Positions 17,671 through 60,752 of a DNA stretch of 64,000 bases are shown one piece after another. The notes under the pieces are model-generated. The model had not been told where the DNA came from, made no database searches, and saw nothing but the letters and a program-made list of their open reading frames with translations. The DNA lies in contig NZ_LR027573.1 in the NCBI RefSeq assembly GCF_900605015.1, forward strand, positions 204,375 to 268,374, read 5' to 3'. A program made the translations under genes and the position numbers. The stretch comes from Olsenella sp. Marseille-P4559 (lineage in GTDB: Bacteria > Actinomycetota > Coriobacteriia > Coriobacteriales > Atopobiaceae). The first letter of the stretch is position 1. Each line of letters starts with the position of its first letter.

Positions 17671-17809
17671 AATTGACGGTTTGTGGCAGTTTGCCGCAAA
17701 TCCTTGATATGATATACATGTAGTGGCAAATCACCTACCTGCGGTATCCCAAATCTCAAAGCGCCTGCTACTCGGGAGCACCGCGAAAAACTGCCACCAA
17801 CCGTAAAAA
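17671..17809 (+). repeat. CTGCCACC element (~140 bp), copy 1
   Basis: Ends AATTGACGGTTTGTGGCAGT and ACTGCCACCAACCGTAAAAA are inverted. Inside lie GCAAATCCTTGATATG, then CAAATCACCTACCTGCGG, then ACTCGGG. It is paired with copy 2 in opposite orientation, 81 bp away. Confidence 0.85.
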
Positions 17810-17890
17810 TGCGCCATCCAGCAACCCCCGACGATGCCTCGGGTGCCGTCGGAATGAGCTCCACCTCGCTCGAACCCGCCTGATGGCACG

Positions 17891-18030
17891 TTTTTACGGT
17901 TGGTGGCAGTTTTATAGGGACAGCCTGAGTATCCAGAGGTTCAATTGTTGATAATTCGCAGGTCAGAGATTTGAGACATCGGAGCCTTCATATAAAGAAT
18001 TTGCCTGAAACTGCCACAAACCGTCAAATC
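17891..18030 (-). repeat. CTGCCACC element, copy 2
   Basis: Same element as copy 1, read on the minus strand, with ends ACGGTTGGTGGCAGTTTTAT and CTGCCACAAACCGTCAAAT. It forms an inverted pair with copy 1. Confidence 0.85.
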
Positions 18031-18305: not shown

Positions 18306-19850
18306 CTACTGCCGGTAGTAGCTCAAGAAGTCCTCGAGCTTGTCCATGGCCTCATGCAGCGTATGCCTGCGCGGCAGGTAGACAATGCGGAAGTAGCCGG
18401 GCTTCTCCCAGTTGAAGCCCTTGCCCGCCGTGACGAGCACGTGCTCGTCTTTGAGCAGGTCAAGCGCAAACTGGTCATCGTCGGTGATGTGGAACTTGTC
18501 CGGGTCGAGGCGCGGGAAGATGTAGAACGCCGCCTCGGGCTTGGTCACCGTGACGCCATCCATGGCACTCAGCCGCCCGTAGACGTACTCGCGCTGCTCG
18601 TAGATGCGCCCGCCGGGGACAAGCAGGCCCTGGCTGCGCTGGATGCCACCCAAGCAGGTCTGCACGATCGACTGTGCCGGCACGTTGGAACACAGGCGCA
18701 TGTTGGACAGCATATTGATGCCGTCAATCAGGTCTTTTGCGATGCGCTTGTTGCCCGAGAGGCTCATCCAGCCAATGCGGTAACCTGCGACCATGTGGCT
18801 CTTGGAGAGCCCGTTGAACGTGATGCAGAAAAGGTCGGGCGCAAGGCTCGCGATGGAGACGTGTTGCTTGCCGTCCATCACAAGGCGGTCGTAGATCTCG
18901 TCCGCAAAGATCACGAGCTGGTTCTCTCGCGCCACATCCACAATCTCCTGCAGCACCTCGCGCGGATACAGGGCGCCCGTGGGGTTGTTGGGGTTGATCA
19001 CGACGATGCCCTTGGTACGCGGCGTCACCTTGCTCCGGATGTCCTCGATGTCGGGATACCAGTTGGTCTTCTCGTCGCAGATGTAGTGCACAGCTGTGCC
19101 GCCGGCGAGCGTGGCGCAGGCGGTCCACAGCGGATAGTCCGGACTGGGGACGAGGATTTCGTCGCCCTCGTCCATGAAGGCGTTCAACGCAAGCTGGATG
19201 AGCTCGGAGGCGCCGTTACCGGTGTAGATGTCCTCCACATCCACGTTAGGAATGCCTTTGAGCTGGTCGTACTGCATGATGGCCTTGCGCGCGGCAAAAA
19301 GGCCGCGGCTGTTGGAGTAGCCCTCGCACTCCGTGAGCTGGTCCTGCATGTCCTTCACGACCTCGTCCGGCGTGCGGAAGCCGAACGGGGCGGGGTTGCC
19401 GATGTTGAGCTTGAGAACGTGGATGCCTTGGTCCTCCATGCGGTATGCCTCGTCTAGGACGGGCCCGCGGATGTCGTACAGGACGTTGTCGAGCTTGGAT
19501 GACTTCTTGAACTGGCGACGAGGCATGGTGGGTTCCTTCTTCTCGGTGGGATTGCTTGACGGGTCATATGCCGCGGGACTCGAGGCTGGCGGATCGGCTA
19601 GGGCTGGCGTGGCAATCTCGCCTGCGTCTCCCAAGAGCCACTCGGCACTCACGCCGAGGGAGCCGGCGAGAAACAAAAGCGTTGCCTTCCTGGGCGTGGT
19701 CTTGCCACTGAGATACTGGCTGAGCTGCGACTTCCCCAGCTTGACGCCATCGGCGACAGCAAGGCGGACAAGATCAGCCTGGCGCAAGCCCCTCTTGTTC
19801 ATTGCCTCTCCAAGTCGCTCGGAGAATGTCTCGTGCTCTTGACCTGCCAC
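18306..19850 (-). CDS. XRE-type HTH domain fused to an AlaA-like PLP aminotransferase
   Basis: A 514-residue fusion. Residues ~5-75 are a Cro/C1-type HTH (GLRQADLVRL, then LGKSQLSQYLSGKTTPRKA). A polar Pro/Ser linker follows to ~108. The rest is a class I aminotransferase with PNNPTGALY and the PLP lysine in FNGLSKSHMVAGYRIGW. The aminotransferase half resembles AlaA, which makes alanine from pyruvate and glutamate. The GTG start at 19850 follows AGAGGAGG, so the fusion is real and not a read-through artefact. It is probably a metabolite-sensing autoregulator as well as an enzyme. Confidence 0.88.
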   Translation of the reverse strand: MAGQEHETFSERLGEAMNKRGLRQADLVRLAVADGVKLGKSQLSQYLSGKTTPRKATLLFLAGSLGVSAEWLLGDAGEIATPALADPPASSPAAYDPSSNPTEKKEPTMPRRQFKKSSKLDNVLYDIRGPVLDEAYRMEDQGIHVLKLNIGNPAPFGFRTPDEVVKDMQDQLTECEGYSNSRGLFAARKAIMQYDQLKGIPNVDVEDIYTGNGASELIQLALNAFMDEGDEILVPSPDYPLWTACATLAGGTAVHYICDEKTNWYPDIEDIRSKVTPRTKGIVVINPNNPTGALYPREVLQEIVDVARENQLVIFADEIYDRLVMDGKQHVSIASLAPDLFCITFNGLSKSHMVAGYRIGWMSLSGNKRIAKDLIDGINMLSNMRLCSNVPAQSIVQTCLGGIQRSQGLLVPGGRIYEQREYVYGRLSAMDGVTVTKPEAAFYIFPRLDPDKFHITDDDQFALDLLKDEHVLVTAGKGFNWEKPGYFRIVYLPRRHTLHEAMDKLEDFLSYYRQ

Positions 19851-19887
19851 TGTTCCTCCTCTTCCGGGCTTCGCGGTTGCAGACAAG

Positions 19888-20020
19888 AAGTTCAACTTTA
19901 TCTTCACGTGCGTTCCGCCGACATCCCTGAAGTTCAAATTTTTTTTTTCCAGTGCAGTAAGTTCAATTTATGGAAGACTATCATGCTGAAGTTCATAATA
20001 CGAGAAGAAAAATTGAACTT
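19888..20020. promoter_or_regulatory. five AAGTTCAA boxes between divergent genes
   Basis: AAGTTCAACTT (19888-19898), AAGTTCAA (19930-19937 and 19959-19966), AAGTTCAT (19989-19996) and TTGAACTT (20013-20020) lie in the space between the XRE-aminotransferase and the small membrane protein. Spacing is 42, 29, 30 and 24 bp. The first box is nearly palindromic. They are candidate operators for the fused XRE domain. Confidence 0.65.
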
Positions 20021-23888: not shown

Positions 23889-24031
23889 AAATTGACGTTT
23901 GGCGACAGTTTTTCGAGGGTGCGCAAAGTACAAACTGGTTCGAGGTTTGTTGAAGTGCTGGTCAGCGATTTGCCACTCCGGCGGTATCACATCAAGGATT
24001 TGCCCGGAACTGCCACCAAACGTCAATTCGC
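23889..24031 (-). repeat. CTGCCACC element, copy 3
   Basis: Minus-strand copy bounded by AATTGACGTTTGGCGACAG and CTGCCACCAAACGTCAATTC, with GGTCAGCGATTTG and ATCAAGGATTTGCC inside. It is paired with copy 4 in opposite orientation, 100 bp away. Confidence 0.85.
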
Positions 24032-24131
24032 GTTCCGGCCGGCGGCGAGGGGCTTCCCCGGGCGCCGACGGCACCATCGACCCCTGTGGGGACGCGGGCA
24101 GGGCCGGGCGCTCGCCAGACAGCGGCCGCAC

Positions 24132-24271
24132 GAATTTACGGTTTGTGGCAGTTCCGGGCAAATCCTTGATATGTTTCAGAAGAGGTCGCAAATCCGTGAC
24201 CTGCGGATCAACAAACATCAAACCAGTTTCTACTCGAGGGGTCCCCGGAAAACTGCCACCAAACGCCAAAA
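24132..24271 (+). repeat. CTGCCACC element, copy 4
   Basis: Plus-strand copy with GAATTTACGGTTTGTGGCAG and ACTGCCACCAAACGCCAAAA ends and internal GGCAAATCCTTGATATG. It lies directly upstream of the peroxide operon promoter. Confidence 0.85.
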
Positions 24272-42132: not shown

Positions 42133-42234
42133 AGTGGCATTCCTTCCTGTCCCATCAGCCGTGTCGCGGTGCCTGTCGGCGACGCGATGCGGCAAATGGG
42201 ACGTCACTGCCGCGAAGTTCAATGCATCTAACTC

Positions 42235-50592: not shown

Positions 50593-50730
50593 GAATTGAC
50601 GGTTGGTGGCAGTTTGAGGCAAATCCTTTATGTGAGTGCGTCGATGTAGCAAATCGCTGACCTGCAGTTTATCAGAAATGCAATCGTCTGATACTCGGGC
50701 CGTCCCCGAAAAACTGCCACCAAACGTAAA
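50593..50730 (+). repeat. CTGCCACC element, copy 5
   Basis: Plus-strand copy with GAATTGACGGTTGGTGGCAG and ACTGCCACCAAACGTAAA ends and an internal CAAATCGCTGACCTGCAG, then TTTATCA. It is paired with copy 6 in opposite orientation across 92 bp. It fills, with copy 6, the 600-bp gap upstream of glutaredoxin. Confidence 0.87.
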
Positions 50731-50822
50731 CGTGCACCATTCGACGATGGCCGGAGGCGTCAGGGTGCCGTTGGGGGCTCATGTCAGACTCGGGCGACGG
50801 GGCACAGGCCGCTGGGTGGCAA

Positions 50823-50962
50823 GTTTTTACGGTTGGTGGCAGTTTTTGTCGGTACCCCCGAGTAGCAAGCTCTTTGAGATTTGACAAATCGCAGGTAAAC
50901 GATTTGTAACTAGCTCGATCTCACATAAAAGATTTGCCGCAAACTGCCACCAACCGTCAATT
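50823..50962 (-). repeat. CTGCCACC element, copy 6
   Basis: Minus-strand copy with TTTTTACGGTTGGTGGCAGT and ACTGCCACCAACCGTCAATT ends. Inside, in reverse, are ACTCGGGGG and GGCAAATCTTTTATGTGAG. Confidence 0.87.
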
Positions 50963-60614: not shown

Positions 60615-60752
60615 GAAATGACAGTTGGAGACAGCCTGGGAAAATCCTTGATGTGGTATCTCTGAACTGGAAAACCCATGACCTGCAGTTTATCAGGGTA
60701 CGAGCCGCTTGATGCTCGAGCGCACCCGGAAAACTGCCACCGACCGTCACTT
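60615..60752 (+). repeat. CTGCCACC element, copy 7 (unpaired)
   Basis: The left end is degenerate (GAAATGACAGTTGGAGACAG) and the right end good (ACTGCCACCGACCGTCAC). Internal AAATCCTTGATGTGG and ATGACCTGCAGTTTATCA are conserved. It is the only copy without a partner nearby. Confidence 0.8.

Follow-up and report, generated by a model that had tools for sequence, protein, structure and literature searches.

A phage-repressor-type HTH fused to an AlaA-type aminotransferase in Olsenella: a predicted self-regulating enzyme with two likely translation products

The gene at positions 18306 to 19850 of the window, by which we mean the whole 64,000-nucleotide stretch of Olsenella sp. Marseille-P4559 DNA analysed here, joins an HTH domain to an AlaA-type aminotransferase, and we consider, from the sequence, that it is probably best explained as an autoregulated trigger enzyme with two translation products. 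Conserved boxes that go with the HTH lie in what is predicted to be the promoter of the gene itself, where the operators of a trigger enzyme would be expected. The features of the gene are as follows.

18306..19850, minus strand: HTH-AlaA fusion gene, a single open frame of 514 amino acids with a GTG start; the fusion is kept in many genera.
19855..19860, minus strand: AGGAGG, the Shine-Dalgarno sequence of the GTG.
19626..19826, minus strand: HTH domain of the TP901-1 CI type, residues 9-75 (HTH_3; top solved relative CI, 3zhm/5a7l/6tri; pLDDT 95-97).
19527..19625, minus strand: linker, residues 76-108, unconserved in the orthologue alignment (pLDDT below 50 at residues 79-107).
19534..19538, minus strand: internal Shine-Dalgarno sequence AAGGA.
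19524..19526, minus strand: internal ATG (M109), a likely second translation start that would give a free AlaA of 406 amino acids.
18309..19526, minus strand: AlaA-type aminotransferase, residues 109-514 (4cvq, E=2.3e-155).
18801-18803, minus strand: presumed PLP lysine K350 (SK motif in 83/83 orthologues).

The preliminary description of this DNA had claimed that the HTH belongs to the enzyme, and this is borne out by the frame, which runs from the GTG at 19848-19850 to the TAG at 18306-18308 without interruption and has its AGGAGG ahead of the GTG. Pfam places HTH_3 at residues 15-72 and Aminotran_1_2 (PF00155) at residues 144-504. The enzyme domain is an AlaA-type aminotransferase, with predicted activity, and its best solved relative is Escherichia coli AlaA (4cvq; 56% identity in the fold search). 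All other matches to the fusion in the genome of the window have 29% identity or less, so the fusion is the sole AlaA-type enzyme found in this genome. In the AF2 model, which is of the monomer, the HTH forms a block with means of 95-97 (residues 11-70), the linker stays below 50 over the residues given above, and the enzyme part matches AlaA 4cvq, with poorly predicted stretches at residues 124-131, 142-158, 167-182, and 384-388.

We note that the preliminary description had missed the internal translation start. The orthologue set comprised 110 loci, reduced to 83 distinct ones by removing repeats according to the last 200 residues, and the internal start codon is kept in 74 of the 83 (72 ATG and 2 GTG; nine have neither). 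Among the 72 with an internal ATG, the Shine-Dalgarno match reaches 4 nt or more in every case, 5 nt or more in 61, and 6 nt or more in 37, compared with 33, 11, and 2.6%, respectively, of the remaining in-frame ATGs in these genes (n=964). A synonymous null, in which codons were drawn from each gene's own usage in 300 draws, gave means of 62.2, 39.6, and 28.0 at these three thresholds, with maxima of 68, 49, and 34. No excess over this null was seen for matches of 7 nt or more (13 versus a mean of 12.1). A match of at least 5 nt precedes the internal start in 85% of cases and the upstream start in 55%, even though the upstream start was chosen using the Shine-Dalgarno sequence. In the fusions held out from motif definition, 22/23 have the internal ATG, 21 with at least 5 nt of Shine-Dalgarno match (L242 and L244, being copies of L136 and L142, do not enter the held-out count; L203 was dropped for masked letters in its linker). 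The Bifidobacteriaceae fusions, of which three Gardnerella-type rows are also represented in the first orthologue set, have the internal start in 13/20, 12 of them with at least 5 nt, and lack it in 7/20. The peptide before the internal start varies widely (QEV, KES, GGT, RST, EGR, and others), and it is thus the DNA signal, not the protein, that is conserved. Two proteins, a repressor-enzyme and a free enzyme, are therefore a likely output of the gene on sequence grounds, and free AlaA may be a major product.

It could also be that autoregulation is right but that the internal Shine-Dalgarno sequence and ATG are relics of the ancestral AlaA start, or a ribosome-pausing signal for folding of the HTH, with only the fusion being made. 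This would agree with the many stand-alone clostridial AlaA genes that have their start, with its own Shine-Dalgarno sequence, at the position of the fusion's internal methionine, and with the nine orthologues and seven Bifidobacteriaceae fusions in which the internal start is missing. We nevertheless regard it as fairly unlikely: the linkers are unalignable and of varied lengths, yet the Shine-Dalgarno sequence and ATG outlast them across phyla, different peptides, and frames, and a pausing signal needs no ATG at initiation spacing. As a separate observation, subclades represented by L279, L280, L284, L291, and the Gardnerella loci (of the RRRTFGKSHK or KHRTFNKSTK types) have lost the internal start and provide a natural contrast for the function of the free enzyme.

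Upstream of the fusion gene, the following features make up the box array and the presumed promoter.

19888..19895, plus strand: box 1, AAGTTCAA (TTGAACTT on the gene strand), exact.
19930..19937, plus strand: box 2, AAGTTCAA, exact.
19959..19966, plus strand: box 3, AAGTTCAA, exact, adjoining the presumed transcription start.
19975..19983, minus strand: TGATAGTCT, presumed extended -10 of the fusion promoter, from alignment with five relatives.
19989..19996, plus strand: box 4, AAGTTCAT, 1 base off.
20013..20020, minus strand: box 5, AAGTTCAA, inverted, exact, kept in five relatives.

Five boxes filling the space to the divergent holin-like gene had been described previously. The array is real, but it consists of four exact copies and one near-match, with one of the five inverted, and it occupies the fusion-side half of the space (19888-20020); ~90 bp adjoining the holin-like ATG (20112) are free of boxes. 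The exact 8-mer AAGTTCAA occurs five times in the window, counting both strands, the fifth copy lying at a distance, at 42215; shuffled windows contain a mean of 0.64 copies, and 0/100 shuffles reached five. The element TGATAGTCT occupies the position of the TGCTA... element in the five aligned relatives, and the -10 score applied to the window itself chose a different hexamer.

Conservation of the boxes upstream of orthologous fusions, which the preliminary description proposed as a check and whose absence would have spoken against its reading, was examined in 82 orthologues and confirmed (L078, which the HTH pattern did not detect, is excluded from this count). Within 300 bp upstream of the start, an exact TTGAACTT is found once or more, counting both strands, in 77/82, compared with a dinucleotide-shuffle mean of 1.8, at least two copies in 57/82 (shuffle mean 0.03), and at least three in 36/82, counts that are not independent because the orthologues descend from one fusion. 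Control stretches contain a box in 0/82 (coding), 0/78 (downstream), and 3/76 (300-600 bp upstream) cases. Of the five orthologues without the exact 8-mer, one is truncated by the contig end, three have a 7-mer, and L061 has no 7-mer box within its 300 bp and only a single 6-mer. The gene-strand consensus around 272 TTGAACT cores is AAATTGAACTT. Held-out fusions have the box in 22/23, L193 having no 7-mer box in the counted stretch. The bifidobacterial relatives mentioned in the preliminary description exist, and all 20 Bifidobacteriaceae fusions have the box. A clostridial sample of 291 genomes gave matches at E≤1e-100 in 34, and a locus was available for 30 of them; boxes are present with 5/5 clostridial fusions but with 0/33 stand-alone AlaA relatives (25 from this sample and 8 from the phylum sample), many of which are AT-rich and some of which reach 69% identity in the enzyme domain. 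The difference between fusion and stand-alone genes gave a Fisher p=7e-5, computed with L245 mislabelled as stand-alone; L245 is counted here as a fusion, its match spanning residues 8-514. Because the boxes are conserved with the fusions and absent with the HTH-less relatives, they are very probably the targets of the fusion's own HTH, as had been supposed from the window alone.

The target appears to be mainly the fusion gene itself, because 25 of the 32 copies of AAWTTGAACTT in eight genomes of the genus lie in the fusion's own array. A wider regulon in the genus was considered and rejected, as the seven sites outside the array are isolated (6/7 were inspected). Twelve further genomes hold 40 exact 11-mers, of which the 30 with a locus were inspected; 13 are at fusion loci, and 17 elsewhere are single and mostly within ORFs, with no second array among these 30 of the 40. 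We also note two other kinds of occurrence. At two of the six inspected sites of the genus, L179 (~1470-1530; own genome C1:491444) and L182, the palindrome AAATTGAAATTGAAGTTCAATTTCAATT, one base off at its left end in L182, lies upstream of an ORF that is Fur-like by eye; it includes the box 8-mer yet is a different kind of site. At L229 and L235, in the clostridial genome of L142, near-identical intergenic stretches with AAATTGAACTT lie ~1.4 kb apart and are probably a repeat.

The preliminary description had seen in the fusion a MocR-like sensor of an amino acid or PLP that regulates both its own gene and the divergent gene for a holin-like membrane protein. In the window, the two genes do have the intergenic region in common, and ligand sensing would be conceivable for an aminotransferase domain whose lysine is intact. 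However, a tblastn search with the holin-like protein against the 110 loci matched only L001, L036-L041, and L065-L070, all from the genus of the window, and conservation of the array extends far outside this genus; the idea of a membrane protein under joint control is thus weak, and the evidence does not uphold regulation of the holin-like gene. The HTH is, moreover, not of the GntR type, and we consider the MocR-like model improbable. Conserved synteny was likewise looked for and rejected, the holin-like and HxlR-like proteins having matches only in loci of the genus and the dehydrogenase being confined to L001; among the neighbour families listed, the largest covers 15 loci.

The HTH of the fusion gave E=1.3e-9 against 3zhm, with the common motif KLxKSxLSQY, and it matches 89 phage records, many of them annotated as repressor or CI-like. 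We take 3zhm, 5a7l, and 6tri to be entries of phage TP901-1 CI, in line with the TP901-1 papers. By this comparison, the closest relative of the fusion's HTH is the phage TP901-1 CI repressor. TP901-1 CI and the related phi13 CI have an HTH homologous to that of the fusion and, in the excerpts of the papers considered, an AGTTCA half-site core: an excerpt of PMC8516035 gives the TP901-1 half-site consensus as AGTTCAYR and states that a central C→G change severely weakened binding by phi13 CI, the TP901-1 OL operator appears as AGTTCATGAAACGTGAACT in an excerpt of PMC4941734, and the half-site AGTTCACG is the mutated site in an excerpt of PMC7250872. AGTTCA is present in 5/5 boxes of the window; the next two bases are AT and so depart from the YR of the consensus. 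The boxes were already defined when the kinship came to light, and it is therefore an independent check on them; both the kinship and the half-site match had escaped the preliminary description. Two differences are apparent. First, TP901-1 CI oligomerizes via its own helical C-terminal domain, which is not in the fusion, where an enzyme replaces it (residues 109-514 are aminotransferase). Second, TP901-1 half-sites form inverted pairs, whereas the boxes of the fusion are mostly direct repeats.

These results bear on the view that a different regulator uses the boxes as its operators and that the fusion's HTH serves some other purpose, which would accord with evidence for the boxes that is confined to cis-site conservation and promoter geometry. 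We find this very unlikely because the boxes occur only where the HTH is fused, the array is practically confined to the fusion locus, and the AGTTCA core is also what the nearest repressor relatives bind in the excerpts cited above.

The boxes are arranged in helical phase around a presumed extended -10 promoter. Direct copies tend to be spaced by roughly a multiple of 10.5 bp (20-21, 30-31, 42-43, 52-53, and 62-63 bp), and additional peaks occur at 7 and 13 bp (217 pairs, which are not independent; Rayleigh p ~5e-15). Convergent box pairs hold phase near 14 bp, close to the 13 bp counted in the excerpted TP901-1 OL operator. The best-scoring -10 in the orthologue upstream regions is mostly an extended TGnTAnnnT, and box starts often lie ~36 or 22 bp before it or ~8, 15, or 30 bp after it. 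In many orthologues, a TTGAAC begins 22-23 bp ahead of the -10, which might suggest that the boxes are mere repeated -35-like promoter elements. This has hardly any likelihood, as the boxes lie downstream of the -10 as well, occur in both orientations, have the longer consensus AAATTGAACTT in common, and are absent from the AT-rich stand-alone promoters. Sites over the -35 and the start region would favour repression.

AlaA-type enzymes are PLP-dependent dimers. In the autoregulated trigger enzyme that we propose, the TP901-1-CI-type HTH would bind the AGTTCA half-sites of the boxes that surround its own promoter, with dimerization of the aminotransferase pairing two HTHs such that two half-sites are bound, and several dimers jointly placed on the phased sites would repress transcription. 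With helically phased sites over and beside the extended -10, graded self-repression is the likeliest effect, and we consider autorepression by the fusion probable. From the same mRNA, ribosomes would also initiate at the internal ATG and produce AlaA without the HTH; these free subunits may account for a large part of the enzyme activity and may also pair with fusion subunits, giving dimers that bind DNA more weakly. Promoter activity would then report the level of the enzyme and perhaps its ligand state, with modulation by ligand or PLP being possible. Such counting of the enzyme through mixed dimers is put forward tentatively.

PutA and other trigger enzymes are metabolic enzymes with a DNA-binding domain that control their own gene, and the fusion resembles PutA in combining an enzyme with a DNA-binding domain and in its predicted self-control. 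The DNA-binding domain of PutA differs in being a ribbon-helix-helix, and we know of no internal-start isoform of PutA. E. coli AlaA (4cvq) has an enzyme domain like that of the fusion but is without the HTH. MocR factors, such as GabR and PdxR, likewise have an HTH together with a fold-type I aminotransferase domain (in the fusion, PF00155 at residues 144-504 and the match to 4cvq), and autoregulation is proposed in both cases. However, the HTH of MocR factors is a GntR winged HTH according to an excerpt of PMC5320631, whereas the fusion has an HTH of the XRE/TP901-1-CI type, an AlaA-like enzyme with an intact active-site lysine, and an internal start; Pfam found HTH_3/HTH_19 and no GntR domain in the fusion at E≤0.001. 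The earlier statement that the fusion is not a MocR protein is therefore correct. Literature searches over the openings of abstracts of open-licence papers showed no description of an HTH-AlaA fusion, the matches listed for the box motif strings included nothing relevant, and none of the searched terms occurs in PMC12565409, which concerns XRE motifs.

If the proposal is true, a design in which one gene supplies an enzyme, its repressor, and, via the internal start, a likely antagonist of that repressor would be widespread in gut bacteria and would link core nitrogen metabolism with the fold of a phage repressor. Like genes in Bifidobacteriaceae, Collinsella, Eggerthella, and Olsenella relatives would then be likely regulators as well as enzymes, and the boxes are a ready candidate binding site.

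The nearest named fusions (90%) are those of Tractidigestivibacter scatoligenes, bacterium OL-1, and T. montrealensis, and the lineages with a fusion include Coriobacteriia, Bifidobacteriaceae, Lachnospiraceae, and Ruminococcus-labelled genomes. In an AlaA tree obtained by a quick search with a midpoint root, a branch with an SH-aLRT of 100 splits 108 fusions from 33 stand-alone rows, and one origin of the fusions is likely because all 108 form one side of it. It is conceivable, though we would not favour it outright, that a phage CI-type domain with operator-binding function was captured once by a housekeeping alanine aminotransferase, that two isoforms arise from the fusion through its conserved pair of translation starts, and that the share of homodimers carrying the HTH sets the promoter so that the cell counts its enzyme; the fusion is now found in Clostridia, Coriobacteriia, and Bifidobacteriaceae.

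Two minor observations concern other sequence elements. The linker of L193 has two AAATTGAACT-like copies in coding sequence, one of them directly ahead of the internal Shine-Dalgarno sequence; linker operators as a general feature were rejected, as the 82 linkers contain five cores in all, which is too few (mean with shuffled codons 0.5, maximum 3). In the window, AAACTGCCACAAACCGTCAA-like interspersed elements lie at 17673-18027, 24007-24269, 50596-50960, and 60731-60750, with 12 matches when up to 3 mismatches are allowed, against an expectation of none, and with alternating orientation; those in 50596-50960 follow one another in exact 115-bp steps and are possibly an array of the REP or MITE type.
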